A DNA stretch of 64,000 nt, from assembly GCA_022072055.1 (NCBI GenBank), contig JAJVIK010000013.1, positions 186,001-250,000 on the forward strand, in the 5' to 3' direction. Numbering within the stretch: the first letter of the stretch is position 1; each line of letters starts with the position of its first letter. A program made the position numbers and the translations under genes. Below the pieces are notes generated by a model. It was not told the origin of the DNA, did not search any database, and saw only the letters and a program-made list of their open reading frames with translations. Below, in pieces: positions 44,684-63,822 of the stretch. The stretch is from a bacterium (GTDB lineage Bacteria > Hinthialibacterota > Hinthialibacteria > OLB16).

Positions 44684-44936
44684 GGTGAGCTCCTTGTACA
44701 GCCGGCCCCAGCGCGGGGAACAAACCTCCCCCGCATGTTTAGTGGATACGAGGGCAATGGAAAAAAGGTTACAGAAACTTCTTCCAGGAACGGGGAGGCG
44801 AAAAAGTGCCTGAAAAAGGGGTATCCGAGGGGTCATGCGGCCTAGCGAGCCTCGATTTTTTTCTAGCGCGCCGCCCTTGAAATGGTGTATACTCCCCCTT
44901 GCTTGCGTTGTCCCCTGAGATGGTGGGAGGCTCCAA
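44684..44936. other. Divergent regulatory region between the 5468-aa gene and the sigma factor gene
   Basis: 253 bp. The reverse-strand ECF-type promoter of the 5468-aa gene is at 44745-44773. Towards the sigma gene there is TATACT (44888-44893) without a convincing -35 box, and the 15-nt-spaced TGTAACC element is absent, so the sigma gene seems to use another promoter. CGAGG (44826-44830) and CCTCG (44850-44854) followed by ATTTTTTT form a weak terminator- or attenuator-like hairpin upstream of it on the forward strand. Confidence 0.5.
44745..44773 (-). promoter_or_regulatory. ECF-type promoter, site A (5468-aa gene)
   Basis: On the reverse strand TGTAACCTTT (44773-44764), 15 nt, then TATC within CGTATC (44748-44745). 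Transcription would start about 55 nt before the ATG. The same element with the same 15-nt gap occurs at sites B and C. Confidence 0.72.
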
Positions 44937-45620
44937 ATGGCTTCAAGGGTGATGGCAGGTTCACCTGTGGAGGAGCAGTGGATTCGAGATCAGGTAGAAG
45001 TTTCGCGCGAGGAAGGCTGGTCGGCCTTCCTGCAGGGATTTGAGTCTTTTATCCGATTCCGGATTTCGTTGTACCGGTTTTCTCCTGAGGATGCGGAGGA
45101 TGTCTTTCAGGAGGTCTGCCTGCGATTGGCGAAGGATGATTCCCGGCTCCTGAGGGAATGGGACCCGAATAAGGCCCCGCTTTCGGGATACCTGGGCGTG
45201 ATCACAAGCAGCGTGTGCTTGAGTTTTCTCAAGTCCGCTTACTATTCATATAGCCGGAGGAAAGTGTCGCTTTCAGACACGGAGTGGCGACGTGGCGAGG
45301 TGTACGCGCTGCTCGAGGACACGGCCCCGACTCCAGAGGAGCGCTTGTCGCGCCTGGAACGGCTTGAGCGGATCGAGACCCTCCTTGAGAGCTGGATGCG
45401 CGGTCGCTCCCTTTCCGCGGAGGATTGTTTATTGGTCCGCTTGCGCATTGGTGGGATGAGCTATCGGGAGGCGTCGAACATTCTCGGCATTTCGTTGGTC
45501 AACGCCAAGGTTCGCTTTCACCGTTTGAAAGAGGACCTCGCACGCTTCCTGCTGGGGCCCTCGGCGGGGGAAAAGCGCGCCCATGAGGGAAGAAGGAGGA
45601 AGTCACCGGAGCCTGGTTGA
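44937..45620 (+). CDS. ECF-type RNA polymerase sigma factor
   Basis: A 227-aa sigma-70-family factor with regions 2 and 4 only. Region 2 shows FSPEDAEDVFQEVCLRLAK and then YLGVITSSVCLSFLKS; region 4 shows LVRLRIGGMSYREASNILGI followed by SLVNAKVRFHRLKEDL, the DNA-binding helix-turn-helix for the -35 element. ATG 44937 follows GGGAGG at normal spacing; ATG 44952 is an alternative. No anti-sigma gene is directly adjacent; the nearest candidate is the 427-aa protein at 48.9 kb. It lies divergent from the 5468-aa gene, whose promoter has an ECF-type element, and is the obvious candidate to read sites A, B and C. Confidence 0.92.
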   Translation: MASRVMAGSPVEEQWIRDQVEVSREEGWSAFLQGFESFIRFRISLYRFSPEDAEDVFQEVCLRLAKDDSRLLREWDPNKAPLSGYLGVITSSVCLSFLKSAYYSYSRRKVSLSDTEWRRGEVYALLEDTAPTPEERLSRLERLERIETLLESWMRGRSLSAEDCLLVRLRIGGMSYREASNILGISLVNAKVRFHRLKEDLARFLLGPSAGEKRAHEGRRRKSPEPG

Positions 45621-45820
45621 GCGGGTTCCAAGGGTTTGGCGGCATGGCACGACCAATCTGGTGATATCGGCGAGAATAACCTTCCATCCCTTTCAGGAGG
45701 CCAGCCCCCATCACTCCTGAGAACCACTTGGCAGCTCTGATCACGGGACTCCTTTGGTACTTCCCTTTCAATCTCCTCACATTCCTCACCTCACGTCTGA
45801 CTTCCGCTCATGAGCTGGAA
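45621..45820. other. Convergent intergenic region
   Basis: 200 bp between the stop codons of the sigma gene and the 917-aa gene. A perfect 7-bp inverted repeat (TCAGGAG 45693-45699, CTCCTGA 45714-45720) could be a hairpin but has no T-run. I see no gene here. Confidence 0.4.
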
Positions 45821-48574
45821 TTATTCACCCTGCCAACTCCGACTTCGACGGAGGAGGTCGGTATACCCTCGGTCTCCATCCCGTATATGGCGCATCATCT
45901 CAAGCAGGCGCGGTGGGTTGAGAGAGGGTTCCTTGTCGGATCTCCAGACCACCTGATCCACCCAAGCGGCATCGCGGTATTGGGAGCGACTGCGATCTTT
46001 GGCATAGATCCACTCAACAACATGATTCCCTTCCTGTAACTCATAGACCTCATGCCGCCACGCGTCCACGCCTGAAATGCGATCCATGGTGTTTCCGTCA
46101 ATGGAGAATATCAGGTAATCAAAACCGGGTTCGGATGAAACCGACCACCAGAAAGTAAGCGTGCCGGGGCCGACCAAATTGGCGGTGAGGACCGTGGCTT
46201 GGTTGTTTCCCACTCTTCCGCTTTGCGCCGCATCATTCCCATCGTGGGTGGTGGTCGATTGGAGGAACCACTCACCGGCGCCCACTGAGACCCAGTGAGG
46301 TTGCGTGTTGTCCACGGCTTCGGCGAGGTCGAGGTTCTGAGTGGGCGTGAAAGTCACGGTGGGGGTCGATGTAGACGTCACGGTGAAGGTTGGCGTCGGA
46401 GTCGCGGTGGCCGTGGAGGTGCCTGTGTCCGTCACCGTGGGTGTGTTGGAGGCGGTGGGCGAGTGGGTGTGGCTCCTGGTCACCGTTGCTGTTTGCGTTT
46501 CCGTGATGGTGAAGGTGTGGGTTGGAGTCGGTGTAACCGTGGGGGTCGGAGTATGAGTCGTTGTTGACGTATTAGTGATGCTGGGAGTCGGAGTGAATGT
46601 CGGGGAAGTTGAGGGGGTTGCCGTGACCGTCGGCGTGTCCGTTATCGTAAAGGTGGCCGTGATCGTCGGGGTATTGGTCGAGGTTCCTGTAACCGTGTGT
46701 GTCGGCGTAGGGGTCCCGGTGTGTGTCTGCGTCCTTGTGTGAGTCTTGGTGTTTGTCGCCGTTGCTGTCTCGGTGGGCAGCCTTCCGCCCGGGCAGTGAA
46801 TCCCGCAGTTGTAGCGGCCTCCTGAAAACCCCATGTCGTTTCTGTCGTAACCGTTTCCCGGGGGGAAGCAAGTGTCGTGGTGCGTCATGAAACCACAGTC
46901 CGGCAGGTGTCCCGGAGGCGCGCCGGCATCAATACACGGAGACGTGGGTTGGAGACAGAAATTGTTGACGGAGGGATCGGTGAATTGAGGATCCGAGGAG
47001 ATGTTGCCTTGTCCGGGATCTCCATCCTGGATGCATGAATAAGTCGCCTCGCAGCCATCCAAGTCATCTCCATTTTCCCAAAGGATGCAACTGAAGATTC
47101 CGCTACAGAAAAACGCACCACCATCAAGACATGCTATTCCGCCTCCCGCGCCCCCCGCAGCGACGTTCTGAGCAATCGTGCAATTCCCGCAATAAAGAGC
47201 GGTTCGAACGTATATTGCCCCCCCGTTCTGGGAGGCGAAGTTTCTCGCGAAAAGCGAGTTTACGATTTCGACGGACCCGGTTTCCGAGGCATAGCCTCCC
47301 CCACGACGAGTCGCTTGGTTTTCGATGAACCTGCATCTCACCAGCCAGGCAGGACCATACACTCCTCCGCCATTTCCCCCCGAACTTTCGGGGTCAGTGG
47401 CTTGATTTCCCGCGAACCGACAATCAAAGACTCGACCGTGGCCACCCCCCGTCATAAAACGACCGAACGCACACCCCCCTCCCTCTTTCGCTTGATTGCC
47501 GGAAAAGAGGCAGGTCCTGATCGTTGCCCCTCCGTAAAAACCACCACCCGCGTTGTTAGCTCGATTTGTCACGAATGTGCAGTTCTCCACTCGAACATCG
47601 TAGGAACCTCCCGCGACTCCGCCCCCATTCCCACTCTCTACCTGATTGGATGTGAAGAGGCAATCTCGAATCAACACCTGTGGATTCGACGGACCAGAAA
47701 AGAGATTGGCCACACAAATCCCACCCCCGGCGCTTCCGGCGATATTCCCGGTCAGGTAAGAGTTCGTGATCGTGGCGGTGACATAGGCGATATCCAGGTA
47801 GATCCCCCCTCCTGACCCTGCTTGATTCTCCCGAATATCACAGCCCTGAATGGCTATGGACCTTTCGGTTGAGCCGGTAACCGCGATTCCACCACCGTTT
47901 CCTCTGGTCACGTTTCCAGAGATGGTGCATGCCTGAAGAGTGGGGAACGTGGCGGGGAATCGAAACGTGTCGTACTGGCACCAAACCCCGGCGCCACCCA
48001 CTTGCCCTTGTGGTGGGAATGTTCCCGAGGTGTTGCCGGTAAGGGTGCATTGTGTGAGCATGGGGGCGGAATCCTTGCAGAATACCCCCGCTCCCCGGTA
48101 AGCCGCGTTATTGGAGATAACGCACTTGGAGATGGTCGGAGAGGAATTCGATTTGATCGAGATGCCGCCGCCCTCCTCGCCAGCTCCACGTGTAATTGTC
48201 AATCCGGATAGTGTGCAGTTAGGTCCCTCTCCGCTTTCGAATCGAACCAACGCGAACCCGGGAACTAACTGGCCATCGATTGCAGTCCCAGCCACAACTC
48301 CCGGGTCATTCGGGTTTGTGGATTGGACGACAAGGTCCTTCCCCAGGAAGTTGATGTGTTCCACGTACGTTCCCGGGTGGACAAGGATTACATCGCCGGA
48401 TACCGCCGCGTTGATTGCGGCTTGGATGGTCGTGAAGTTTCCCGTGCCATCCAGACGCACGTTATAGGTCGCCGCGCCAACCGAACCCATCTCGCCATAC
48501 AGGACCGCGAAGCACGATAGAACCGTCCCTATCGGCCAACCGAACAATGGATGCGCTGCCCTCGAACCTTTCAT
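45821..48574 (-). CDS. Parallel beta-helix protein with Thr/Pro linker and jelly-roll-like module
   Basis: A 917-aa exported protein. ATG 48574 has GAGGGG upstream and starts a signal peptide ending near VGAA (about residue 35). The beta-helix (about 38-590) opens with NFTTIQAAINAAVSGDVILV, the same opening as in the 5468-aa protein, and has GGGI-C repeats. A Thr/Pro/Ser linker (about 595-745) follows. Then comes a module (about 745-885) of the type LAEAVDN ... GPGTLTFWWSVSSE ... GVDAWRHEVYELQEG ... WVDQVVW that also occurs three times in the 5468-aa protein. The last 30 residues (LLEMMRHIRDGDRG and onward to SRSWQGE) resemble the C-terminus of the 5468-aa protein. Its promoter carries site B of the shared ECF-type element. 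Confidence 0.88.
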   Translation of the reverse strand: MKGSRAAHPLFGWPIGTVLSCFAVLYGEMGSVGAATYNVRLDGTGNFTTIQAAINAAVSGDVILVHPGTYVEHINFLGKDLVVQSTNPNDPGVVAGTAIDGQLVPGFALVRFESGEGPNCTLSGLTITRGAGEEGGGISIKSNSSPTISKCVISNNAAYRGAGVFCKDSAPMLTQCTLTGNTSGTFPPQGQVGGAGVWCQYDTFRFPATFPTLQACTISGNVTRGNGGGIAVTGSTERSIAIQGCDIRENQAGSGGGIYLDIAYVTATITNSYLTGNIAGSAGGGICVANLFSGPSNPQVLIRDCLFTSNQVESGNGGGVAGGSYDVRVENCTFVTNRANNAGGGFYGGATIRTCLFSGNQAKEGGGCAFGRFMTGGGHGRVFDCRFAGNQATDPESSGGNGGGVYGPAWLVRCRFIENQATRRGGGYASETGSVEIVNSLFARNFASQNGGAIYVRTALYCGNCTIAQNVAAGGAGGGIACLDGGAFFCSGIFSCILWENGDDLDGCEATYSCIQDGDPGQGNISSDPQFTDPSVNNFCLQPTSPCIDAGAPPGHLPDCGFMTHHDTCFPPGNGYDRNDMGFSGGRYNCGIHCPGGRLPTETATATNTKTHTRTQTHTGTPTPTHTVTGTSTNTPTITATFTITDTPTVTATPSTSPTFTPTPSITNTSTTTHTPTPTVTPTPTHTFTITETQTATVTRSHTHSPTASNTPTVTDTGTSTATATPTPTFTVTSTSTPTVTFTPTQNLDLAEAVDNTQPHWVSVGAGEWFLQSTTTHDGNDAAQSGRVGNNQATVLTANLVGPGTLTFWWSVSSEPGFDYLIFSIDGNTMDRISGVDAWRHEVYELQEGNHVVEWIYAKDRSRSQYRDAAWVDQVVWRSDKEPSLNPPRLLEMMRHIRDGDRGYTDLLRRSRSWQGE

Positions 48575-48661
48575 GGTGGGAGCCCCTCTTTCTATTTCCG
48601 TGATTGACCGCGCCGATTTGAAGCCACCCGAAACTCCTACTCCTTTAGGCCCTCACCCGGG

Positions 48662-48689
48662 CGCCAAGTGGCTAGGTCACCACTTGGCG
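48662..48689. repeat. 10-bp perfect palindrome in a divergent promoter region
   Basis: CGCCAAGTGG (48662-48671) and CCACTTGGCG (48680-48689) with an 8-nt loop. It lies in the 374-bp region between the 917-aa gene and the CHAT operon, in the transcribed leader of the 917-aa gene if site B is used. It could be an operator or an mRNA leader hairpin; no T-run follows on either strand. Confidence 0.7.
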
Positions 48690-48756
48690 GTGCGAATTCA
48701 TGCCCTATCCACTCCTCGCGCGGCAAATCTTCAACATGGATTTTTTCCCTTTGAGA

Positions 48757-48785
48757 GATACACGGTCACGAGCGGAAAGGTTACA
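48757..48785 (-). promoter_or_regulatory. ECF-type promoter, site B (917-aa gene)
   Basis: Reverse strand TGTAACCTTT (48785-48776), 15 nt, TATC (48760-48757). The 10-bp upstream block is identical to site A and the gap is the same length. The leader would be about 175 nt and includes the palindrome at 48662-48689. Confidence 0.72.
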
Positions 48786-48884
48786 GGCAAGAATCCGAAT
48801 TCCTTGGTGGAAACCGGCCGGTTCCTGCCATCAATCGAACAAACCTAACCTCAGCACCCGGAACAGTCGCCAATTCCCATCCCC

Positions 48885-48913
48885 TGTAACCTATCCCATC
48901 ATCTCCTTGTATG
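48885..48913 (+). promoter_or_regulatory. ECF-type promoter, site C (427-aa/CHAT operon)
   Basis: Forward strand TGTAACCTAT (48885-48894), 15 nt, TATG (48910-48913), ending about 35 nt before the chosen ATG. It is back-to-back with site B, 100 bp away, so both transcription units could be switched on together. Confidence 0.68.
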
Positions 48914-48948
48914 ATGAACTGGAAGGGATTTGAGACAGGGTGGAACCG

Positions 48949-50223
48949 ATGGATTCGGAATGGTTCAACGATATTGCGGGGCTTCTGGCGGGGAGCCTAT
49001 CGCCGGAGGATCGCGGGCGGGTGCTGGCTCGGCTGGCGCATGATCCCGAGGCGCGTGAACTGCTTGCGGTGGAAAGCGCCGTCCCAAGGGTCGCCGGACC
49101 GGATTCGAACTACCCCTTTGGCCTGCTACCGGGGATTATGGTCGGAAACCAGCAGGATTATTTCCGAATCCTCCGCCTCGATCACTTCTGCTTGGGCATC
49201 GAGGAGCGACGTGTGGATCGGTTCCTTGCCCGCATTACGCCCAAGAAAATGCCGCTCTGTTTCAAGGACTTTCTTCACCTTGAAACCGAACCGGGTTCCC
49301 CCTGTGGCAGAATCCGTCTCTCGTTGGAGTGGAGGGAGGGCGAAATCCTGGTGCGCTGGCGGGGCGAAGGGACCTCGAAGAACCATCTGGAATTCTGGAG
49401 AGAGGGCCGCTTGGTTCGAGCGGTCAGCGCCTCGGTGCCGATTGAGATTCCTTCCGAATTGTTCGCGGCTGGAGACACCTTGGTGGTCCGCCTGGACCGA
49501 GACAACGTGGGCCTCACCCTCCAGTGGATTCCGGTTGAGCTGGGTCTTTCCGATTGGGTCTCGGCTTGTATCGGCAACGCCTTGGCGGGAAATCCCCGTG
49601 AGTCGGTCCGTCTTCTGCGAACAGAAGTCCTTGAACGATTCCCGGAGCCTCTTCTGATTGAGCGCGCGGCCTGTCTGCTCTCCTCGCTCGGCTCGGTCAC
49701 CAAGAACATTCGAGGGCTGCTGATGCCGGTTCCACTCACTCGCTCTGCAAACCGGCGGGAGGACCAAAGGAACGCGTTCCAGGTGGTCTGGCGCGGTATG
49801 CTCCAGTGTTGGCCCGACGCGGGCCTCCGTCCCAACCCCTGGGCGGTCGAACTGGAGGATTTCGGAACCCCACCCCCGCTTCCCTCTCAAGTCGAGGAAC
49901 TTGTCCTTGCCCTGTTTCAAGCGGTGGAGCAACCGCCCCAGGAGATGTCTTGTCATCAGGCAACCCTGACGGATCCGAATCTCAGAATGGGCTGGGCGTC
50001 GTTTTGGGGGTGGAGCCTGCTCTTATCGGATCAGCCGGAGGAGGCCAAAGCGTGCTTCGACTCGGTTGAGGCTTCCGAGGAGGACCCGTTTTCGCTCCGG
50101 GAGTCCAGGGGGCTCGCCGCCCATCTCCTCGCGTATTCCGAATCTCGACGGCCTTCAAGGGAGGAGTGGATGGATTCCTCCCTTGGCGTGTGGAGGAAAG
50201 TGTTCCAACTGATTCTGGATTGA
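48949..50223 (+). CDS. Unknown protein with anti-sigma-like N-terminus
   Basis: A 424-aa protein of no family I recognise; ATG 48949 is used, though GTG 48940 in the same frame is possible. Residues 3-40 (LAGSLSPEDRGRVLARLAHD, then PEARELL) resemble the helical N-terminus of anti-sigma factors, but there is no zinc-binding HxxxCxxC and no membrane segment. The middle (about 110-190) looks like a beta-sandwich (RIRLSLEWREGEILVRW). The C-terminal part is helical and TPR-like (WSLLLSDQPEEAKACF). It is the first gene of an operon with the CHAT/kinase gene 15 nt downstream. It could be a sigma regulator or the CHAT substrate; both are inference. Confidence 0.75.
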   Translation: MDSEWFNDIAGLLAGSLSPEDRGRVLARLAHDPEARELLAVESAVPRVAGPDSNYPFGLLPGIMVGNQQDYFRILRLDHFCLGIEERRVDRFLARITPKKMPLCFKDFLHLETEPGSPCGRIRLSLEWREGEILVRWRGEGTSKNHLEFWREGRLVRAVSASVPIEIPSELFAAGDTLVVRLDRDNVGLTLQWIPVELGLSDWVSACIGNALAGNPRESVRLLRTEVLERFPEPLLIERAACLLSSLGSVTKNIRGLLMPVPLTRSANRREDQRNAFQVVWRGMLQCWPDAGLRPNPWAVELEDFGTPPPLPSQVEELVLALFQAVEQPPQEMSCHQATLTDPNLRMGWASFWGWSLLLSDQPEEAKACFDSVEASEEDPFSLRESRGLAAHLLAYSESRRPSREEWMDSSLGVWRKVFQLILD

Positions 50224-50238
50224 TCCGCATTCGCAACC

Positions 50239-53200
50239 ATGATTCCCTCAAACGGACCTCTCCGGCTGATTCTGGTGGCGCGCCGCGTGGACAACCGTTG
50301 CCGAATGGAGCTCCACCAGGCTTTTTCGGATCAGTCGAGCTTGGTCTGTCACGCCGACCATCCCTTGGAGCCGGAGAGGGTTGAGCGCCTCTCACTGATG
50401 GTTCTGAGGCACATCCGTCTCACCAATCGGGAGGGAACATCGGTCGCCGAGGAGGAGCGTTTCACGCGGACATGCGGGGAGCTCCACAACCTCCTTCTGC
50501 CTCCTCCGGTCCGGGAGGCGCTGCGAGGCTCCAGGGCCCATTACCTCCTGATTCGTGCTGACGAGTGGTTTGCGGCGCTTCCCTGGGAGTTCCTGTACGA
50601 TGGTGGGGAATTCCTGTGCTGCAAGTACTGTCTTGGACGACAGCCGCTCGATTCGTCGATCGCATCGGCTTCGCGCGGACACCGGCCCGTGTTCGGGCTT
50701 TCCTTCCTTGTCGTGTCGGACCCAACCCGCGGCTTGCCGGCCGCGTCTGAAGAGGGAAACGCCCTCTACCGGATGTTGAGCTCGGAATCGACGATCACAC
50801 TTCAGTGGTTAAACGGTCCTGTCCGCAAACAGGAGCTCCAGGATCGGCTCGGATGGTGCGACATCCTTCACTATTGCGGACACGGACAGCATTGCGAGAG
50901 CGAGGGCGCGGACCCGGGATGGGCTTTCGCGGATGGGCCCCTAAGCCCCTCTGAGATCCGAGACCGGTTGGCGGGAGGGAAGGACCCTCCCTTGCTTGTT
51001 TTCTCGAATGCCTGTGGGGATGCGCGAGACCGAGAGACCGGATCAGATTCGGTCATAAGGCGATTGGGGTCGCATGCCCATGCCTTTCTGAGCGCGGGTT
51101 CGGAGTGTGTGGTCGGGACCTTGTCGGAGGTCCTGGACGAATCGGGGGCAAAGTTCGCGCATGCGTTCTATGGGCGAGTGCTAGAAGGAGAGCGTATCGG
51201 GGCGGCGCTGCGCTCGGCTCGCGCGGAGCTCCGGGCCGCCGGTCCCACGACCGATCTCTCCTGGGCGCAGTATGTCCTTTACGGCGACCCGACGACCTCG
51301 GTATTCGAGGAGGCCGCCTCGGAACGGACCGCGCGGACCATCGTGTTGGTGGACTTGGATGAGCAACCCATCCGTTCCGGGGGGTCGTCGGAGCGGACCT
51401 CCGCCCCCGGAGGGTTGGATGTGGGCGCGCGGGAACTCCTTCAGAACGCCCTTCTCTCGTTTCCGGATGCGGCCTGGACCTCGGAGTCGGAGCCGCCGTT
51501 CTTGTGCGCCTTCTCCAGGCCTTCGGACGCCGCGCGGTTCTGCTGCATGCTGCATTCGGCGGCCCGTCGAAGCGACCACGGTCCCGAGCGGGCTTCACCC
51601 CTGCGTCTGGCGGTAAGTTCCGGCGAGGTCACCCTGGATAAAGGAATGGGTGAAAACGCCATCACTTCCGCGCGCGGACCTTCCGTGGATGTCGCCTGGT
51701 CCCTGCTGAAATTGGTCCGGACCGGGCAGACCCTGATGGTCCACTCAGCCTTTGACGACGCTCGGGCGGTCCTTAAAGATCGTGATTTCCCCGATTCGGC
51801 GGAACTGGTCTGGTCGAATCATGGCCCCTACCGTCTTGCCGATCTCGACGACCCCCTTTGGATCTGCGAAATGGGGGAAAAGGGAAGCGCGCCGCTGCTT
51901 GCCCCGGTGGAATCCGCGGAGGCGCGAAGGCTCACGCTCCCCGATGAGGAGCCGGTGCTGGGGTGGCGTCCTTCCTTGGAGAAATCGCTTCCCAATGCCC
52001 CGGATTGGGTGCTGACCGAGAAGCTGGGGGAGGGCGGCTTCGGCGAGGTTTGGCGCATTCAGAATCGCGCGAACAACGAAAGGCGCGTGGCGAAGTTCTG
52101 CTTTCAATCCGAGCGGGTGCGTCACCTCAAACGCGAGGTGAGTTTGATCCGACTCCTGCGCGAGCGCATTGGAAAGCACCCGAATATCGTTCAGCTGCAT
52201 GAGGTCTGCTTCGAGACCCCTCCCTATTACATTGTCATGGAGGATGTGGCGGGGAAGGACTTGGCGAAGTGGTTCGAGGAACACCGGGATCACCCCAAAC
52301 TCACCGAACAAGTTCGTCTCGAGATCGTCGCGCGGGTGGCGGACACGCTTCAGTCCGCGCATGACGCCGGAGTGATTCACCGCGATGTCAAACCGAGCAA
52401 CATCCTGATCAAGGGAACTCTCGATTCCGATTCGGGCATCACGGTCATGTTGACCGATTTCGGGATCGGTCAAGCGCCTGGGCGGGAGATTCCGTCCGGC
52501 TCCACGCTCACCGGCTTCACCGGAACGTTCAGCCCGACCGAGCTCCGAGCAAGGTCCGGAAGCTGGCTCTACATGGCCCCGGAGGTTCTCGTGGGACAGG
52601 AGTCTTCGATCCGGTCGGACGTGTATTCCCTGGGGGTGATTCTGTATCAGATTGTCCATGGGGAGTTCAACCAGCCGCTCCCCGCGGACTGGGAACGTGG
52701 GATTAAGGATCCGATCCTGGCGGGAGATATCCGGCGTTGCCTGGCTCGTAGGCCAGAGGATCGCTACGAAAGCGCCGGGGAGTTCGCCAGGGCCCTGAGG
52801 AATCTGGGGGAGCGTCGGATCGCCCAGGCCATCGAGGAAACTCGACGCCGAACCGAGGCGCGCCGGCGCCGTTTGACATTCGGACTCGGAGTTTTCTCCG
52901 TATTCGCCATGGCCCTGACCATCGCGCTAGGGAGTGCGTGGCGAGTGGCCGTTCAGGCGCGCGAACGTGAGCGACTCGCGCGCCTGGAAGCCGAGAGAGG
53001 GCATTACCACTCCCAGATTCATGAGGCCCAACGCGCGATTGAAGACCATGACTCGTGGAGCGCCAGGGAGATCCTCTATAAGTGCCCTGAACACCTTCGG
53101 GGCTGGGAGTGGGGCCGTCTTGCATACCTGTCGAACCTGGAGCAACGGGTCTTTGGATTTGAAGACACCGAAGTGTACTGCATGGCTCAGTCGCGGGATG

Positions 53201-54957
53201 GAAGCACGCTGGCCTGCGGTGGAATGGATGGCCGAGTCCGCGTTTGGGAACTCCGCTCTGGGAACCTCCTGTGGGAGTTCAAGGCGGGAGAGGGGCGGGT
53301 CATCCAGCTCGCCCTGGACTCGGATTCCACGACACTGGCCGTGTCGGATGAGGCCTGGGTTTCGATTTGGGACGTTAACTCACACCGCCGCACCGGACAG
53401 TTTAGAGCGGAGCGTCCGCCCGTGGTGGAGCTCCAGTTCTTGCCTGACCGAAGCCTCTTGGCCAGCGCTGACTCGCACGAGTGTTTTTGCATCCGAGACC
53501 TGTCCAAGCCCGGCAGGCCGGCCATGGAGTTGGGGGATGTCGGGCAGTTGCGAGATTTGGCAATCACACCGGATGGCTCCCGAATGTTCGCGGCTTGCCA
53601 TGACCACGGGCTGATGATTTTCAATGGGCAGACCTTTGCCCTCGAGAAAGCCCTGGGGGAGGAGGGGCAACTCGCCACCTCGGTGACGGTGGACAACGCC
53701 GGGGGAGCGTTCGCGGTCGCCTTCGAGAACCGAATCCGCCTTGGTTCCGTCCCGAGTTTGGATTTATCGGGAGCTGAATTGAGAGTTCCCGGTCCCGTGG
53801 AATCCCTATGCTTTTTCAGGGATGGCCGCCTCTTGGCCTATCAGACCTCGATGGGATCCTACGGCGTCATCGACTTGGAGAGCCGCGCCGAACGCTACAC
53901 GGGCCGTGGCGCGATCGGAAAAACCATCCTCATTTCCCCGCTCGACAACCGAGTGGTGGTCCTCGGGAGAGACCGCCGCGTTCGTGAATACCGGCACGAT
54001 CGGGACCTTGATGGGATTCCACTCGAGGGGCATCAGGCGTTTGTCTCGGCATACGATTTCAGCAGTGATGGGGAGATGTTGGCCACCGGAAGCGATGACC
54101 AAACCATTCGGCTTTGGGACACAGAGAGCGGCCGGAACATCTCGACGTTTATTTCACCAAGGCCCATTCGATGCCTGGCTTTCCTTTCAGAGAACCAGAG
54201 AATCGTGGGCGGTTCGCCGGGTGGGGCTGTCCAACAGTGGGACACCATCACGGGGCAGCTGATCAAAGAGATTCAGACGGGTGCATCGAACATCACCTCC
54301 ATCTGTCGCCATCCCGCCAAGGACCGTTTCGCAATCAGCACATCGGAGGGCCAAGTGGTGGTCTATGAAAGATCCACCCTGGAAAAGGTCCTGACCATCG
54401 TCGCCTCAAATGGGCCGGTGTCCAGGGTTGCCTTTAGTCCGGATGGGTCCCGATTGGCCACCGCCGGCGAAGATTATCTTGTGAAGGAATGGGACTCTGA
54501 AACGGGAAACCTTGTTCGGGTCTTCGAGGCGCACACCAGCCCTGTCAATCAGGTTGCTTTCCTTGCGGATGGAGAACGATTGGCATCCGCGGGTGAGGAT
54601 CAACGAATCCTGATTTGGAACAGAGAAACCGGCGAATGTGTGGGAACCATGTTGGACAAAGAATACTCCTTGTTTGACCTCGCCGTGTCCCCCGACTCGC
54701 AGCGGCTGTTCACTCGAGCGCGCCTTTGGGACCTGAACAACTTCCGGCCAATCCTGGATTTCGGCGAACGTCATCGGATCTTGCACCGGGATGGCCTGCT
54801 CATGGTTGAAGGGGGCGTTCCCACCGCTCTCAGAATCCTCCCGGCCTTTCCCTGGAAGGATCACGACCTTTCCGAAGACCCGACTTTGAGCCTGGAAGAG
54901 CGTGTGGAGGAGTACCGTGGGCGCTATTGGCAGGCGCGCGGCGCGCCCTCGAAGTGA
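50239..54957 (+). CDS. CHAT protease-like + cyclase-like + Ser/Thr kinase + WD40 membrane protein
   Basis: A 1572-aa signalling protein. CHAT domain (about 100-375): ILHYCGHGQH (catalytic His, near 214) and VFSNACGDARD (catalytic Cys, near 259). A degenerate class III nucleotide-cyclase-like domain (about 364-555) begins IVLVDLDEQ and contains LRLAVSSGEV and GQTLMVHSAF; the second metal aspartate seems missing, so it is probably non-catalytic. Protein kinase (about 590-870): GEGGFGEV, lysine in VAKFCF, HRDVKPSN, DFG and APE are all present, so it should be active. One membrane helix (878-901) and a coiled stretch lead to about 500 residues of WD40 repeats (DQTIRLWDTESG). The kinase and CHAT parts face the cytoplasm if WD40 is outside. 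No clear ribosome site precedes ATG 50239, suggesting coupling to the upstream gene. Confidence 0.93.
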   Translation: MIPSNGPLRLILVARRVDNRCRMELHQAFSDQSSLVCHADHPLEPERVERLSLMVLRHIRLTNREGTSVAEEERFTRTCGELHNLLLPPPVREALRGSRAHYLLIRADEWFAALPWEFLYDGGEFLCCKYCLGRQPLDSSIASASRGHRPVFGLSFLVVSDPTRGLPAASEEGNALYRMLSSESTITLQWLNGPVRKQELQDRLGWCDILHYCGHGQHCESEGADPGWAFADGPLSPSEIRDRLAGGKDPPLLVFSNACGDARDRETGSDSVIRRLGSHAHAFLSAGSECVVGTLSEVLDESGAKFAHAFYGRVLEGERIGAALRSARAELRAAGPTTDLSWAQYVLYGDPTTSVFEEAASERTARTIVLVDLDEQPIRSGGSSERTSAPGGLDVGARELLQNALLSFPDAAWTSESEPPFLCAFSRPSDAARFCCMLHSAARRSDHGPERASPLRLAVSSGEVTLDKGMGENAITSARGPSVDVAWSLLKLVRTGQTLMVHSAFDDARAVLKDRDFPDSAELVWSNHGPYRLADLDDPLWICEMGEKGSAPLLAPVESAEARRLTLPDEEPVLGWRPSLEKSLPNAPDWVLTEKLGEGGFGEVWRIQNRANNERRVAKFCFQSERVRHLKREVSLIRLLRERIGKHPNIVQLHEVCFETPPYYIVMEDVAGKDLAKWFEEHRDHPKLTEQVRLEIVARVADTLQSAHDAGVIHRDVKPSNILIKGTLDSDSGITVMLTDFGIGQAPGREIPSGSTLTGFTGTFSPTELRARSGSWLYMAPEVLVGQESSIRSDVYSLGVILYQIVHGEFNQPLPADWERGIKDPILAGDIRRCLARRPEDRYESAGEFARALRNLGERRIAQAIEETRRRTEARRRRLTFGLGVFSVFAMALTIALGSAWRVAVQARERERLARLEAERGHYHSQIHEAQRAIEDHDSWSAREILYKCPEHLRGWEWGRLAYLSNLEQRVFGFEDTEVYCMAQSRDGSTLACGGMDGRVRVWELRSGNLLWEFKAGEGRVIQLALDSDSTTLAVSDEAWVSIWDVNSHRRTGQFRAERPPVVELQFLPDRSLLASADSHECFCIRDLSKPGRPAMELGDVGQLRDLAITPDGSRMFAACHDHGLMIFNGQTFALEKALGEEGQLATSVTVDNAGGAFAVAFENRIRLGSVPSLDLSGAELRVPGPVESLCFFRDGRLLAYQTSMGSYGVIDLESRAERYTGRGAIGKTILISPLDNRVVVLGRDRRVREYRHDRDLDGIPLEGHQAFVSAYDFSSDGEMLATGSDDQTIRLWDTESGRNISTFISPRPIRCLAFLSENQRIVGGSPGGAVQQWDTITGQLIKEIQTGASNITSICRHPAKDRFAISTSEGQVVVYERSTLEKVLTIVASNGPVSRVAFSPDGSRLATAGEDYLVKEWDSETGNLVRVFEAHTSPVNQVAFLADGERLASAGEDQRILIWNRETGECVGTMLDKEYSLFDLAVSPDSQRLFTRARLWDLNNFRPILDFGERHRILHRDGLLMVEGGVPTALRILPAFPWKDHDLSEDPTLSLEERVEEYRGRYWQARGAPSK

Positions 54958-55065
54958 ATCCGTGGAGGTGGGCTTAAGAAGGAGTGCTTACTTGGGACTC
55001 GAACTCATTCTTGGTGCAGCTTAGCTCTTCCCAGGAGTGGGTTATGCGCCGTCGAGGGGGGGGTG

Positions 55066-55091
55066 TGACACCTCGCCCGGGTGTCATTTTG
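55066..55091 (+). terminator. Likely terminator of the CHAT operon
   Basis: Stem TGACACC (55066-55072) with GGTGTCA (55080-55086), a 7-nt loop, followed by TTTTG. It lies 109 nt after the stop codon. Confidence 0.65.
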
Positions 55092-55143
55092 TTTCGGAAG
55101 CCAAGATGATTCGAGGATTGGGAGGTGTTCATGAAGGTCTACA

Positions 55144-55192
55144 CCCTCTTCCAAGCCGTGGGACACCCGTTCGAGTCGGGGCTGTCGTACCA
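55144..55192 (+). repeat. Decayed copy of the tRNA-Arg 3' half
   Basis: 49 nt ending in CCA align to the 3' part of tRNA-Arg(TCT) with about 8 differences; the stretch CCCGTTCGAGTCGGGGCTG is exact. No 5' half precedes it, the anticodon stem no longer pairs, and the loop would read TCC. It looks like an old att site, or a remnant of a related tRNA. Confidence 0.75.
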
Positions 55193-55283
55193 AGAGATTT
55201 CCTGTCTTGCCATTCTGAGGTCCTTTGTCCGCCCGATGTAAAGCATGGACTGGGACATGCGGGTGTGGCAAAATCAGATTTCC

Positions 55284-55312
55284 TGACCTTATCTACGAAT
55301 GAGGTAAGGTCA
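55284..55312. promoter_or_regulatory. Operator-like palindrome upstream of the HEAT-like gene
   Basis: TGACCTTATC (55284-55293) and GGTAAGGTCA (55303-55312) are complementary with one mismatch around 9 nt. Its position just upstream of the gene suggests a repressor site and argues for the downstream start at 55356. Confidence 0.5.
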
Positions 55313-55355
55313 GCCCCGCCCAATGCCCATACTCACCAAAAAGGGGGCGATTCCC

Positions 55356-55970
55356 ATGCCACCGATTCCTCAGGGCTTGGCTTCCACCGTGGCCTCCCCA
55401 AGTTCCGATGATCTTACTCTGCAGGCCCTGTTGGAGGGCTTGAAGCAGCCGGACCCGGAGGTCCGAACCGGAACTTGGCGGCGCGCCCCCGAGGTCGGCG
55501 CACCGGCGGTCCAGCCCTTGGTTGAGTTGATGGGGCACGAGAACTCCGAGATTGCGCGCGCGGCCAAACGCGGCTTGTGGCATATGGTCCGTCATGCCGG
55601 GCGCCCCGGCGCCGAGGAGGAAAGGGCCGCGCTGGAGACTGAATTGGATCGGCTGATCCAGGTGGAACAAGCCGTGGCGGTGCTCCGGGAGCTGCTCTGG
55701 ATGGTGTCTGAAATTGGAACGGATCGTTCGGTTCCAACCATCGCGGCGCTGCTCTCCCGCGAGGACACTCGCGAGGACGCCAAGATGGCGCTTGAGCGAA
55801 TTCCAGGCGACCGGTCCCTGGAGGCCCTCAAGCAAGCGATTCAAAGCGCGCCGGAGGGGTCCAGGCCGAGCATTGCGCATTCGCTCCGGGTTCGGGGAGT
55901 GGAAGTTTCCGGGTATCCCTCCAAGAAGCTTCAGCCATCCAAGAAGACCGAGGTTCAACCCATCCCCTGA
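55356..55970 (+). CDS. HEAT-repeat-like protein
   Basis: A 204-aa soluble protein. ATG 55356 is preceded by AAAAAGGGGG at suitable spacing; ATG 55323 in frame is less well supported and lies only 11 nt from a palindrome. The sequence is built of paired helices with the HEAT/PBS-lyase pattern (AVQPLVELMGHENSEIARAA; SVPTIAALLSREDTREDAKM; EALKQAIQSA), the sort of scaffold used for protein binding. There is no signal peptide and no catalytic motif. It ends 47 nt before the Gfo/Idh/MocA gene, same strand, so the two may share a transcript. Confidence 0.8.
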   Translation: MPPIPQGLASTVASPSSDDLTLQALLEGLKQPDPEVRTGTWRRAPEVGAPAVQPLVELMGHENSEIARAAKRGLWHMVRHAGRPGAEEERAALETELDRLIQVEQAVAVLRELLWMVSEIGTDRSVPTIAALLSREDTREDAKMALERIPGDRSLEALKQAIQSAPEGSRPSIAHSLRVRGVEVSGYPSKKLQPSKKTEVQPIP

Positions 55971-56017
55971 GGGTGGCGCAACGCCAGTCATCGCCGAGGC
56001 AAAGGAGCAACGACCCC

Positions 56018-57355
56018 ATGCAAACCCGATCAGAATGGAAGCGGAGAGAGTTCATCGCGGGAGTGGGGGCGAGTCTTTCCCTTCCCTTCATCCTGCCACC
56101 GGGTATTCGAGGCGCGGCTGGAGCGCCGAGCCCTAACGAGCGACTGACCATCGCCCTCATCGGTTGCGGGGGCATGGGGGGGTTCCTTCTCGGTAGACTG
56201 CTTGCCTTCCGGGAAGAGGGGACTGTTCATGTGGCGGCGGTCTGCGATGTGGATGAAACCAGGTTGACTGAAAAGCTGGCCAAGGCGGGCCCGGGCGTGA
56301 CTCCCTACCGAGACTATCGCTACATCCTCGAACGCAAGGATGTGGATGCCGTGGTGATCGCCACTCCCGATCATTGGCACGCGCTCCAGATGGTCCACGC
56401 CGCGGAGACCGACAAGCATGCCTATGTGGAAAAGCCGGCCTGCTGCACCATTGAGGAGGGCACGGCCATGATGCGCGCGGCGCGGGAGAACAAGATCTCC
56501 GTCCAGGTCGGCTCTCAGGGGCGCTCCGAGCACGAAGCCTATCTGGCGCACCGATATCTGGCCAACGGAGCCGTTGGCCGGGTTGATCGCGTGGATTGTT
56601 TCCACTATCCAAGCCCAATCGATGAGGAGCCGGTCCCGGACAGCGAGCCGCCCACCGAACTGGATTGGGATATGTGGTTGGGGCCGCTACGTTGGCGTCC
56701 CTACAACAAGCGCTACTGTCACGGGACCTTTCGCTGGCTCATGGAGTCGGGCGGCGGGCAGATTCGAGATCGCGGCGCGCATGTGATGAGCTGCGCCAAG
56801 CACTGGATGAACGCCGACGGACAGACCCCGGTGACCGTTGAGGCGACCGGGACCCCCCCGATCCAGGGGCTGTGGGACAGTTGCGTCGACATCAATGTGA
56901 CCTACACCTTCAAGGACCCCGACTGGGTTCTCACCTGGAACCAGCCCGGCGAGCCGGTCCCCAAGGAGGAGCGCGCCGCGGATGAGCCGCAGATCACTCG
57001 ACCCGGATACGGGGCAGTCTACCACGGGGACAAGGGGGATTTTGTCCATTGGGGCGGGGACAGCGGGACCTGGGCCGAGCGGAAGTGCCGGGAATGGGAG
57101 CCACCGGCCGGGGCCATCGAGGTTTTCAAGAGTCCCGGTCACATGGAGGACTGGTTCATCGGAATCAAGACTGGCCGCAAGACAATCATGAACATCGACG
57201 CGGCGGTGGAAGTGGCCGACCTCTGCAATCTGGGGAACCTCTCGTATCTTCTTGGGAGAAAGCTCCACTGGGATGGAGCCAATCGCCGGATCATCGGGGA
57301 TGACTACGCCAATCGGCTGCTGGGAAGACCGCAGCGCTATCCGTACCATCTCTGA
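56018..57355 (+). CDS. Gfo/Idh/MocA family oxidoreductase with Tat signal
   Basis: A 445-aa NAD(P)-dependent sugar or inositol dehydrogenase-type protein exported by the Tat system. The N-terminus has KRREFIAGVG followed by a hydrophobic stretch, the twin-arginine signal. The Rossmann fold begins IALIGCGGMGG; DHWHALQMVHA and VEKPAC supply the family's conserved EKP lysine. ATG 56018 has AAGGAG 10 nt upstream and places the twin-arginine motif correctly; the longer GTG start at 55973 does not. Such exported members are numerous in Planctomycetes-like bacteria and are usually linked to polysaccharide breakdown. The substrate is unknown. Confidence 0.93.
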   Translation: MQTRSEWKRREFIAGVGASLSLPFILPPGIRGAAGAPSPNERLTIALIGCGGMGGFLLGRLLAFREEGTVHVAAVCDVDETRLTEKLAKAGPGVTPYRDYRYILERKDVDAVVIATPDHWHALQMVHAAETDKHAYVEKPACCTIEEGTAMMRAARENKISVQVGSQGRSEHEAYLAHRYLANGAVGRVDRVDCFHYPSPIDEEPVPDSEPPTELDWDMWLGPLRWRPYNKRYCHGTFRWLMESGGGQIRDRGAHVMSCAKHWMNADGQTPVTVEATGTPPIQGLWDSCVDINVTYTFKDPDWVLTWNQPGEPVPKEERAADEPQITRPGYGAVYHGDKGDFVHWGGDSGTWAERKCREWEPPAGAIEVFKSPGHMEDWFIGIKTGRKTIMNIDAAVEVADLCNLGNLSYLLGRKLHWDGANRRIIGDDYANRLLGRPQRYPYHL

Positions 57356-57587
57356 GCCGCCCCATCATTCTCCCTCCAAGGCTATGATCTCCCCCTCGCG
57401 CCGAGCGGTCTCGACAGGTGGTGTCAAGCAGATAATCAATCCCATTCATCGCGGAAGGCTCGCTGGATGTCGAGTGGGTCGCCCTCAAACCCCGGGGCCC
57501 CCTCAAGGCTGCCCATGAAGTCCTTTTGTCCACCGATCCTTGACCTGATTGCAGCCTTGCTGGGGGTCGGTTGAGGAGAGGATGGCG
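57356..57587. other. Convergent intergenic region before the rRNA terminator
   Basis: About 230 bp between the oxidoreductase stop codon and the reverse-strand rRNA terminator. I see no gene or repeat. Confidence 0.4.
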
Positions 57588-57630
57588 CAAAAACACGAAT
57601 CGCCCTCAGGGGGTTTCCCTTCGGGCGATT
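57588..57630 (-). terminator. rRNA operon terminator
   Basis: On the reverse strand, AATCGCCC pairs with GGGCGATT (plus-strand arms 57623-57630 and 57598-57605), with an inner AGGG/CCCT stem. A run of five T follows. It starts 9 nt after the 5S 3' end. Confidence 0.88.
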
Positions 57631-57638: not shown

Positions 57639-57756
57639 TCCCGGCGCGTTCCTACTCTCCCACCCCCGCCAGGGGGCAGTACCATCGGCGATGGAGGGCT
57701 TAGCTTCTGTGTTCGGGATGGGAACAGGCGTTTCCCCTCCTCCATACACACCGGAA
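57639..57756 (-). rRNA. rrf: 5S ribosomal RNA
   Basis: The universally conserved core CCCATCCCGAACACAGAAG is present on the reverse strand. Terminal sequences TTCCGGTG and CGCCGGGA pair to close helix I, giving about 118 nt. It is downstream of 23S and co-transcribed with it. Confidence 0.93.
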
Positions 57757-58006
57757 ACTTTACGAAACGGTCACTCGAGATCCACGCCTGGTTCGGAGTG
57801 CATCTTCGCGCCAGGGTGGAGAGCCACCGCTTATCATCCATGAATGCGGTGGGGTGATGCTGCCTTGCATTGATTTGTAGATCAAGTCCTTCGTCCGATT
57901 AGTACCGGTTAGCTCCACGCGTCACCGCGCTTCCACTTCCGGCCTATCAACCTCGTCGTCTTCAAGGGGACTTATCTCCGAAGAGGGGAGAACTCATCTT
58001 GAGGTG

Positions 58007-58039
<33 letters not shown>

Positions 58040-58158
58040 CTTCGCGACTCGGCTACCCTGCGATGCCCTTGGCAGGACAACAGGTACACCGTTGGTCGCT
58101 CCGTTCCGGTCCTCTCGTACTAGGAACAGCTCCTCTCAATTCTCCTACGCCCACGACA

Positions 58159-58214
<56 letters not shown>

Positions 58215-58245
58215 TGGCGAACAGCCAAACCCTTGGGACCGCCTA

Positions 58246-58287
<42 letters not shown>

Positions 58288-58506
58288 TCCCGTCGCTGTG
58301 GGCGCTTGGGGAAGATCAGCCTGTTATCCCCGGGGTACCTTTTATCCGTTGAGCGACGGCCGTTCCATGCTGAGCCGCCGGATCACTAACACCTGCTTTC
58401 GCACCTGCTCGACTTGTGGGTCTCGCAGTCAAGCTCCCTTGTGCGTTTACACTCGACGCGCGATTACCAACCGCGCTGAGGGAACCTTTGCGCGCCTCCG
58501 TTACAG

Positions 58507-58538
<32 letters not shown>

Positions 58539-58796
58539 ACCTGCCACTGTCTCCGGTCCGGATGACGGATCAGGGTTAGAGCTCCAGTAACACCAGGGTG
58601 GTATTTCAAGGTTGGCTCCCCCGAACCTAGCGGCCCGAGTTCACTGCCTCCCACCTATCCTACACAAGAATCACCAAAGCCCAATGACAGGATATAGTAA
58701 AGGTCCACGGGGTCTTTCCGTCTAGCCGCGGGTACCCGGCATCTTCACCGGGATTACAATTTCACCGAGCTACTCGTTGAGACAGCTCCCAGATCG

Positions 58797-58843
<47 letters not shown>

Positions 58844-59531
58844 CACCATCTTCCCGCTTTTTCTGGCGGGGGTGGACCATCTCTTTATCCGAGTTTCAAG
58901 GACTCACGGATCTCTTCAAGCCTCGGCCGGGTCGTGGAGTTCATGGTGAGTGCGACCTCAATGATCTCCAGCAGCCCTTCCCGCGTCAGATGCCGCCTTT
59001 CCTGCATCATCAGCAGAATCTGCCTGAACTTGCGAAAATCCGTGTGTTTCTTGGTTTTAAGGGGGTGTTTCATGAAGAACTCGCAAACCTGGGCAAGCCC
59101 CTCCAGGTTCCGGATTCGGAACGCGAATCGCTCTCCATGGTTTCGCCGAACGACCCCAGCCCCAAAGTGCTTCTTGAGGGCATACAGGACCTGAATATCT
59201 CGCTCGTGCTGAACCACGGTGAATTCTGGCAGGACTTGGTGTCCCACGGTCATTTCCGGATGCTTTTGAAGGCTGACATGAAAGCAGCCTTCACCGTCGA
59301 CAAACCCGACGATCCAATCCGGAGTCAGTTCCATGAAGCTTCCCCTTGAACTCGGATAACCGGCATATGGCCTCTGAGGATCCTCTTTCGAGTTTCCTGC
59401 GGATTGCCCAATCCTTCCCATTTTTACGCCAAGCCAACTTTGCTTGGGAGCGTAGGGAAGGCTCTCAGGGTGTTCCCGCATACAGCCGGTTATTGCCCCA
59501 CAGGTTACCCTGTGGGCAGGCAACGGATGTC
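58844..59531 (-). mobile_element. Group I intron in 23S rRNA (E. coli position 1931)
   Basis: The exon junction is CCTAAGGT / AGCGAAATT, that is after U1931. The 5' exon ends in U and the intron ends in G, as group I splicing requires. Visible parts in RNA sense: an internal guide GCCT pairing with exon AGGT (U-G at the splice site); hairpin CCCACAGG-GTAA-CCTGTGGG (59497-59516) with a GNRA loop; Q-like CAATCCGCAGG; R-like CTCAGAGGCCA; and S-like AAGAGATGGTCC. GGCCA/TGGTC form P7. The homing endonuclease gene lies between R and S, that is in P8. Confidence 0.93.
58885..59334 (-). CDS. LAGLIDADG homing endonuclease (intron-encoded)
   Basis: A 149-aa single-motif LAGLIDADG protein, expected to act as a homodimer that cuts intronless 23S genes and so spreads the intron. 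The motif is present as WIVGFVDGEGCFHVSL near the N-terminus; GEG at its end supplies the acidic metal ligand. Further family features are the FTVVQHERDIQVLYALKKHF and FAFRIRNLEGLAQ segments. ATG 59334 is preceded by GGGGA; the open frame continues upstream through intron core sequence but is unlikely to be translated. Many relatives also assist splicing (maturase activity), which cannot be judged here. Confidence 0.93.
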   Translation of the reverse strand: MELTPDWIVGFVDGEGCFHVSLQKHPEMTVGHQVLPEFTVVQHERDIQVLYALKKHFGAGVVRRNHGERFAFRIRNLEGLAQVCEFFMKHPLKTKKHTDFRKFRQILLMMQERRHLTREGLLEIIEVALTMNSTTRPRLEEIRESLKLG

Positions 59532-59566
<35 letters not shown>

Positions 59567-59828
59567 TGGGGCTTCGATTCAGAGCTTTGCCCGAGGGCTA
59601 ACCCCTCCTCTTAACCTTCCAGCACCGGGCAGGCGTCAGGCCCTATACTTCCACTTTCGTGTTTGCAGAGCCCTGTGTTTTTGCTAAACAGTCGCCTGGG
59701 ACCTTTCACTGCGGCTCTCCGGTGCTCCAAGAGTATTCCATTCACACCAGAAAGCGCCCCTTCTTCCGAAGTTACGGGGCTATTTTGCCGAGTTCCTTAA
59801 CGAGTTATCACTCGAGCGCCTGAGGATA

Positions 59829-59865
<37 letters not shown>

Positions 59866-60370
59866 ACCTCAGAACAAACCACGAGGCTTTTCTAGGAGGC
59901 ATGGAGTCATCTGAAGTGCTTCACCCGGAGGATCCACACCCTGTCGCGCCTCAGCGTTATTGACGCCCGGATTTGCCTGGACGTCCGCCTACACGCTTCG
60001 GTACCCAATACCCTTGCGGGACCATCTGAGTCTCAGACTATCCTTCCCCGTCCCCCCTTGGTTTAACGTTCTGCGGCGGCAAAGGAATATTAACCTTTTT
60101 CCCATCGACTACGCCTTTCGGCCTCGCCTTAGGGGCCGGCTGACCCGAGGAGGATGAACCTTGCCCCGGAAACCTTAGGTTTACGGCGAGCAGGACTTTC
60201 ACCTGCTTTGTCGTTACTCATGCCAGCATCATCTCTTCCGGCCGCTCCACACGTCCTTGCCGGTCGTGCTTCGCTGCGGACGGAATGCTCCCCTACCACT
60301 CCGATTGCTCGGAGTCCGCGGCTTCGGCGGTGTGCTTGAGCCCCGTTGAATTATCGGCGCTGCGATGATT

Positions 60371-60401
<31 letters not shown>

Positions 60402-61455: not shown

Positions 61456-61490
<35 letters not shown>

Positions 61491-63803: not shown

Positions 63804-63822
63804 TTGTTCATCCCCCACTTCC

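Follow-up and report, generated by a model that had tools for sequence, protein, structure and literature searches.

In the type III-E CRISPR system known as Craspase, which comprises Cas7-11, Csx29, Csx30 and CASP-sigma, the protease Csx29 cuts Csx30 and thereby relieves a sigma factor, and in the RseA/DegS and RsiW pathways signal-dependent proteolysis of an anti-sigma factor likewise frees a sigma factor of the extracytoplasmic function (ECF) type (PMC10028731). For the ECF54 group, the genomic context of which includes genes for CHAT proteins, subtilases and carboxypeptidases, the account in PMC8999054 suggests proteolytic control without an anti-sigma factor. Here we analyse a locus of a Hinthialibacterota bacterium (GTDB lineage Bacteria; Hinthialibacterota; Hinthialibacteria; OLB16) in which the gene for an ECF sigma factor lies near two adjacent genes encoding a 424-aa anti-sigma-like protein and a 1572-aa membrane protein with CHAT, kinase and WD40 domains. 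The locus is contained in a window of 64,000 nucleotides, positions 186,001 to 250,000 of contig JAJVIK010000013.1 (assembly GCA_022072055.1; 5.86 Mb in 32 contigs). From the sequence of this window, an initial annotation had proposed a protease-gated sigma switch coupled to a kinase and a WD40 sensor instead of CRISPR. Our results indicate that the three genes form a recurrent trio, and we consider it probable that the CHAT protein is a membrane receptor-protease which, upon a signal, cuts the soluble anti-sigma factor and frees the ECF sigma factor.

The conserved linkage of the three genes, which the initial annotation had suggested as a check, was examined from both sides and held in each case. 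The source genome contains eight CHAT genes, seven of which are accompanied by genes for a sigma factor and for a homologue of the 424-aa protein (hereafter, the middle protein), whereas neither was present in the 10 kb examined for the eighth (C29). A search of the genome with the 424-aa protein yielded seven matches, namely, the query itself and six proteins at 25-32% identity, and a search with the sigma factor yielded seven strong matches (the query and six at 27-41%) along with a weak one containing a stop (3.5e-4); the sigma and middle-protein homologues coincide at the same seven places, each beside a CHAT gene. The gene order varies among the seven trios: sigma, middle protein and CHAT in succession; CHAT diverging from middle protein followed by sigma; sigma diverging from middle protein followed by CHAT (twice); middle protein, CHAT and sigma in succession; sigma convergent at the CHAT end; and the arrangement in the window, with a gene intervening. 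Six of the seven trio CHAT proteins share the architecture of the window protein; in the remaining one (C6b), which lacks a kinase, CHAT is preceded by a class III cyclase. The kinase is therefore not a constant part of the trio. The trio at positions 6928-12423 of locus L028 contains a protein of the class III cyclase-CHAT-cyclase type in place of the kinase-WD40 form.

The nearest named relative is Candidatus Hinthialibacteria bacterium OLB16, and locus L066 is contig 121 (51,651 bases) of genome G001, which is assigned to the same family. When 40 further genomes were searched with a profile of the seven middle proteins, matches were obtained in G001 (two loci), G002 (three) and G004 (one, weak). 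All six loci contain the sigma gene, and four also contain CHAT, in two cases with broken frames; CHAT is missing from L049 and would lie beyond the contig end in L050. Over the four genomes, sigma is thus present at 13 of 13 middle-protein loci, and CHAT too at 11. Other sigma matches at 1e-10 were found in G004 (two) and in G007, G009, G010 and G011 (one each); no middle protein lies beside the four of these that were examined (L055, L056, L058 and L059). In L054 and L057, CHAT genes of the C6b type are accompanied by neither of the other two trio genes.

The association extends far beyond this lineage. When 84,980 species genomes were scanned with a CHAT alignment, 172 loci were confirmed and 80 of them kept; these 80 came from records labelled Omnitrophota, Desulfobacterota/Deltaproteobacteria, Nitrospirota, Myxococcales, Planctomycetota and others. 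Profiles identified sigma, middle protein and CHAT at 55 of the 80 loci, at 10 a contig end was too near to tell, and one contained a middle protein with room for a sigma gene and none there. One of the 55 (L130) was removed because the sigma match there is weak and covers a stretch of a 584-aa frame, leaving 54 clear trios. In these distant loci the three genes usually lie on one strand in the order sigma, middle protein, CHAT, sigma and CHAT being about 0.7 kb apart, and the 1.15 Mb of fetched DNA contained no sigma gene outside the trios, the only one scored as 'far' belonging to the trio of L066. Because the 80 loci had been recruited by CHAT, a reverse search was made from the side of the middle protein, with its profile run against 117, 148 and 100 genomes (365) from the phyla of three trio genomes. 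It produced 27 anti-sigma matches in 26 genomes, at least three of the 27 being loci already in the profile. CHAT adjoins 26 of the 27 (there is none within 1.5 kb in L165), as does sigma (L152 reads N upstream). L140 and L141, two more Desulfonema copies that the CHAT scan had not recruited, are likewise full trios.

A separate observation concerns a fourth gene, encoding about 600-825 aa where complete, which lies just upstream of sigma and often overlaps its start in 12 trio loci (L071, L074, L084, L088, L101, L104, L107, L117, L120, L121, L131 and L132). The fourth genes are mutually related, two of the three scanned encode a CsgG/LpoB/FlgO-like domain, and the same domain follows the transmembrane helix in some CHAT proteins.

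The 1572-aa protein of the window had been described as combining an intact CHAT catalytic pair with a cyclase-like region, an intact kinase and WD40 repeats in one membrane protein, and most of this description stands. The CHAT domain matches PF12770 at 107.4 bits (cut-off 24) and contains the catalytic His and Cys in the motifs HYCGHG (H215) and NACG (C259), a dyad that is invariant in 88 of 88 CHATs compared. By domain score and dyad, the protein appears to be a member of PF12770 (clan CD), with predicted proteolytic activity. The kinase (PF00069, 126 bits) has the full complement expected of a Ser/Thr kinase, with the G-loop GEGGFGEV at 597, the Lys in VAK at 617-619, HRDVKPSN at 714, DFG at 740 and APE at 780, and is predicted to be of this type; the WD40 repeats, C-terminal to the transmembrane helix, also score above the cut-off. 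The cyclase-like region is the part that fared poorly: Pfam gives no cyclase in this stretch of the window protein, PF00211 matches the equivalent stretch of a paralogue at 3.5e-6, and the identification of a degenerate cyclase-like domain is accordingly weak. The transmembrane helix is a regular feature, following CHAT-kinase in six of the seven copies of the source genome and CHAT-cyclase in C6b, and lying C-terminal to CHAT in 70 of the 80 proteins of the scanned loci. Domain content is more fluid. Among 10 of these proteins scanned, tetratricopeptide repeats (TPRs) and CsgG/LpoB-like, FlgT-like and trypsin-like domains were found after the helix, and cyclases or a kinase before it. To judge from these sequences, CHAT is the constant part and kinase, cyclase, TPR, trypsin and WD40 modules are interchangeable, the kinase and WD40 being lineage-specific input parts rather than the core of the switch as originally envisaged. 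In addition to the dyad, all 88 CHATs retain a Glu in the motif PWE (E117) and an Asp (D300), and in profile alignments with PDB entries the PWE and the Asp match yeast separase. In C. elegans separase, the contacts of the P1 Arg have been modelled as Glu917, next to Trp916, and Asp1082 (PMC4626109), the inferred counterparts of E117 and D300.

The sigma gene, which the initial annotation had placed 3 kb away, ends 3.3 kb upstream of the 424-aa gene on the same strand. Its product matches TIGR02937 at 51.1 bits (cut-off 42.9) and Sigma70_r2 over the Pfam cut-off, with r4_2 just under it; possessing regions 2 and 4 and no region 3 domain, it can be classed as an ECF sigma factor by sequence. 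The acidic sigma-2.2 motif is kept in all seven trio sigmas of the source genome.

The evidence on the middle protein is clearest in the distant loci, where zf-HC2 matches 42 of 49 sequences (E <= 0.01), the zinc ligands H, C and C are each present in 46 of 49, and the best PDB matches of the profile are 3hug, ChrR, RsiW and DdvA (E 6e-4 to 4e-3), with RsrA matching weakly. Entry 3hug, named merely a membrane protein in PDB, is presumably the anti-sigma factor RslA. Thus, the distant middle proteins would usually be zinc-binding anti-sigma (ZAS) factors of the zf-HC2 type. In a model of one of them (L084, which like L107 is from Desulfonema magnum; predicted local distance difference test, pLDDT, 79), the helical N-terminus and the C-terminal beta sandwich are both confidently predicted and are joined by a flexible stretch. 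A fold search with this model gave no PDB match at E <= 0.001; the 50 best matches included many folds of the immunoglobulin (Ig) and fibronectin type III kinds, with the ChrR-SigE complex at rank 34 and Csx30 absent. The 424-aa protein has no Pfam family above the cut-off and nothing in NCBIfam or PADLOC, and is laid out as a helical anti-sigma-like N-terminus (about residues 1-45), a predicted beta region and a helical C-terminal half. The initial annotation had found its first 40 residues anti-sigma-like, and profile comparison bears this out: hhalign aligned the window family with the distant anti-sigma profile at a score of 42.3, compared with at most 18.3 for 200 column shuffles and 20.3 for the reversed profile; the score was 32.7 upon omission of the divergent L051, and the N part alone reached 31.0 (maximum of the whole-profile shuffles, 18.3). 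Aligning the window-type and distant anti-sigmas together produced visible misalignment, and this alignment was discarded. By a simple hydropathy scan, 12 of the 13 middle proteins of the window family and 48 of the 49 distant ones lack a transmembrane helix.

A candidate for the point of cleavage emerged from the same proteins. The 49 distant anti-sigmas have two invariant columns, a Tyr of the beta domain and a single Arg, which is R124 in L084, in a linker between stretches 114-120 and 127-129 with pLDDT < 50 that separates the well-modelled parts. The residue before the Arg is L, V, I or A in 46 of the 49, the residue after it is G or S in 41, and in the source genome R265 is invariant in all seven middle proteins. 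A search with the pattern [LF]xP[LIVA][PMA]x[TVLFA]R[SGA], derived from the window family, over the frames of the 80 loci (705,646 aa) returned 12 matches, of which nine are distant anti-sigmas at the invariant Arg (9/49, related to each other), one is a window-family member and two are other frames. We propose the linker Arg in its PxPxxR[SG] setting as a candidate CHAT cleavage site.

The mechanism that we infer, from sigma binding and topology to signal, cleavage, cleavage site and target genes, would operate as follows. Because the transmembrane helix follows CHAT and the middle proteins are soluble, the model places the sensor outside, the protease inside and the soluble anti-sigma factor as its substrate. 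The window protein would cross the membrane once, with CHAT and kinase on one, presumably cytoplasmic, side and the WD40 propeller on the other, presumably outer, side. The 424-aa protein would hold the ECF sigma factor through its anti-sigma-like N-terminus, away from RNA polymerase, until a signal at the WD40 end activates CHAT, probably via the kinase and the degenerate cyclase-like domain. The activated CHAT would then cut the 424-aa protein after R265 (in PVPLTR-S), and the damaged holder would release the sigma factor, turning on its genes.

The intact kinase motifs invite a different view, in which the Ser/Thr kinase acts by phosphorylating either the sigma factor or the 424-aa protein and CHAT serves as a scaffold; ECF43/EcfP-PknT and PknB with RshA would be the models for such a switch. 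Kinase-linked ECF sigmas are indeed known (PMC8999054). Such a switch is nonetheless improbable here, given that the kinase is missing in C6b, one of the seven trios of the source genome, and in eight of the 10 CHAT proteins that were scanned among those of the 80 loci (one has it, and L066 is a frame-broken fragment, the later frames of which lay outside the scan), whereas CHAT is always present with its invariant dyad; moreover, ECF43 sigmas, as presented in PMC8999054, lack the acidic sigma-2.2 motif that all seven sigmas here keep. We regard as still more improbable a conflict or cell-death module, with CHAT as an executioner acting on other targets and the sigma/anti-sigma pair controlling its expression. 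This view could draw on caspase-like systems with nearby ECF sigma genes, proposed to be immunity modules (PMC8195603), and on the CRISPR linkage of Craspase (PMC10028731), but it does not readily account for the fixed one-to-one composition of the trio, with the anti-sigma gene directly upstream of CHAT in distant loci, or for the joining of CHAT to a transmembrane helix and, in scanned examples, to domains of kinds frequent in the envelope (CsgG/LpoB-, FlgT- or trypsin-like).

A more serious contender, which we nevertheless deem rather unlikely, concerns the invariant Arg motif, which might be a docking or sigma-contact segment, with CHAT acting elsewhere or non-proteolytically. In distant anti-sigmas the motif precedes the beta domain and in the window family it follows the beta region, and the loop of Csx30 in which Csx29 cuts contains, by alanine scanning, no single essential residue (PMC10028731). 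The placement of the motif at different points of the chain in the two families, however, argues for a shared reader over plain inheritance, and CHAT is the shared partner. Furthermore, the invariant basic residue sits in a linker modelled as flexible, and the CHATs keep acidic residues aligned with the separase positions modelled to bind the P1 Arg (PMC4626109).

Several observations weigh against the receptor-protease reading itself. Fourteen of the 80 CHAT loci have room upstream and contain CHAT alone, with neither sigma nor anti-sigma, and L049 (G002:C546, 5138-7287) conversely contains a middle protein and sigma with no CHAT in its 19.8-kb contig; elsewhere in G002, at L053, a CHAT gene lacks both partners, and the two loci are possibly a split trio. 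In the 424-aa protein, the zinc motif H-x3-C-x2-C is replaced by HDPEARELL and zf-HC2 finds no match, so that, the ligands being lost, the kinship of the window family with ZAS factors hangs on the profile match, and the C (beta) part alone scored 17.9, no better than the controls at 18.3 and 20.3. Since the profile signal sits in the N part and the C part is at control level, we read the 424-aa protein as a putative zinc-less anti-sigma relative with a remodelled C-terminus. The N-terminus is degenerate or missing in the middle proteins of C9 and L049, and structure prediction for the 424-aa protein, made with two sequences, gave an unusable mean pLDDT of 41. The cleavage pattern was written after the sequences had been seen; it occurs once each in 11 of 13 window-family members, being absent from L051 and cut off in L050. 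Conservation of E117 was partly favoured by the genome scan pattern, which partly selected for PWE. Finally, among the seven paralogues, CHAT distances track neither sigma (r 0.04) nor middle protein (r -0.36), whereas those of sigma and middle protein correlate (r 0.52, reached by 40 of 5040 permutations); the pattern fits one-to-one sigma/anti-sigma pairing with an interchangeable protease, and equally may be noise at n=7.

The features of the locus are listed below. The 424-aa gene starts with an ATG preceded by a plausible ribosome-binding site and ends 15 bases before the CHAT gene; because the 917-aa gene on the opposite strand intervenes, the sigma gene stands outside the operon formed by these two.

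Table. Features of the sigma/anti-sigma/CHAT locus (window coordinates)
Feature	Position	Strand	Remarks
ECF sigma factor gene	44937..45620	+	227 aa; regions 2 and 4; acidic sigma-2.2 motif PEDAEDVFQE kept
917-aa gene between the sigma and 424-aa genes	45821-48574	-	single gene, opposite orientation
424-aa anti-sigma-like gene	48949..50223	+	soluble; no transmembrane helix predicted
Nonapeptide LMPVPLTRS, residues 258-266 of the 424-aa protein	49720..49746	+	proposed CHAT cleavage site, R265/S266
CHAT - degenerate cyclase-like - Ser/Thr kinase - transmembrane - WD40 gene	50239..54957	+	1572 aa
CHAT protease domain, residues 77-350	50467..51288	+	predicted dyad H215/C259; acidic E117, D300 at separase S1-like positions
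Ser/Thr kinase domain, residues 592-810	52012..52668	+	full set of catalytic motifs
Predicted transmembrane helix, residues 879-897	52873..52929	+	Arg-rich stretch just before

Two candidate target genes of the sigma factor flank its own gene. Both encode secreted-looking proteins in which blocks are repeated and long spacers are rich in Thr and Pro: a 5519-aa protein (28277-44836, minus strand), the gene of which diverges from the sigma gene at a distance of 100 bases, and the 917-aa protein, encoded divergently from the 424-aa gene. The intergenic region that separates the 917-aa and 424-aa genes contains an inverted pair, GGTTACAGG and CCTGTAACC, at 48779-48787 and 48883-48891, and a hairpin, GCCAAGTGG and CCACTTGGC, lies at 48663-48688. 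A comparison of dyads among the intergenic regions of the window gave nothing convincing; upstream of 49 sigma genes, the top count was 8 compared with 5-7 in 30 shuffles, with TATAAT-like AT-rich words dominating, which we judged uninformative, and no autoregulation motif was found in either set. Farther downstream, the 23S rRNA gene (57878-61531, minus strand; 5S at 57639-57755) is split by a group I intron (58853-59541; RF00028, 52.6 bits) containing a 212-aa frame (58885-59523), which we take to encode a LAGLIDADG-type homing endonuclease. The product of a 647-aa frame (61875-63818, minus strand) presumably resembles a fused enzyme of the N-acetylneuraminate synthase type, with a TIM-barrel-like second half.

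We found no description of a trio of ECF sigma factor, ZAS anti-sigma and membrane CHAT protein in open-licence full texts, where the two precedents tying CHAT to sigma control were Craspase (PMC10028731) and the ECF54 group (PMC8999054); the tables of the ECF reclassification may list it. More tentatively, and with rather less than even confidence, we suggest that these trios represent a widespread, apparently undescribed class of single-pass receptor-proteases, in which a cytoplasmic, separase-like, Arg-specific CHAT cuts soluble ECF anti-sigmas within a conserved PxPxxR[SG] linker, after the Arg, under swappable sensors (WD40, kinase, cyclase, TPR, CsgG/LpoB-like or trypsin), and of which Craspase would be a later, RNA-guided offshoot. 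If so, caspase-like cleavage of sigma inhibitors would be a general wiring principle of bacteria beyond CRISPR, with the membrane anchor in the protease and not in the anti-sigma factor, and the trios would constitute a family of orthogonal protease/sigma switches and a candidate evolutionary source of Craspase. The single Arg offers a precise and cheap test of the model.

Region 44900-57600 contains no CRISPR-like direct repeats, and no Cas gene was noticed by eye, no cas profile search having been made. Csx29, Csx30 and CASP-sigma are not among the PDB matches listed for the trio profiles, and the middle-protein profiles gave no Csx30 match among PDB sequences. Compared with kinase-linked ECF systems such as ECF43, the trio likewise has an ECF sigma factor near a Ser/Thr kinase gene, but its sigmas keep the acidic sigma-2.2 motif and the kinase is dispensable across trios. 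The trio shares with ECF54 a CHAT gene in the neighbourhood of an ECF sigma gene; ECF54 is described without an anti-sigma factor, whereas an anti-sigma-like gene is present in all seven trios of the source genome. The distant middle proteins match the ZAS factors ChrR, RsiW and RsrA by profile and differ from them by a flexible Arg linker and a C-terminal Ig-like beta domain, whereas the window protein differs by the lack of zinc ligands and an extra helical half. In the RseA/DegS and RsiW pathways it is the anti-sigma factor that spans the membrane, whereas in the trio the protease does and the anti-sigma factor is soluble. Craspase appears to be the nearest known system, the relation being read as one of analogy: both combine a CHAT protease, a soluble sigma inhibitor and an ECF sigma factor, with cleavage of the inhibitor demonstrated in Craspase and predicted for the trio, and they differ in that TPRs precede CHAT in Craspase, whereas the CHAT of the trio lies at or near the N-terminus, ahead of the transmembrane helix and, in the window protein, also of the kinase and WD40 repeats. 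We class the trio as a probable variant form of protease-gated control of ECF sigma factors.

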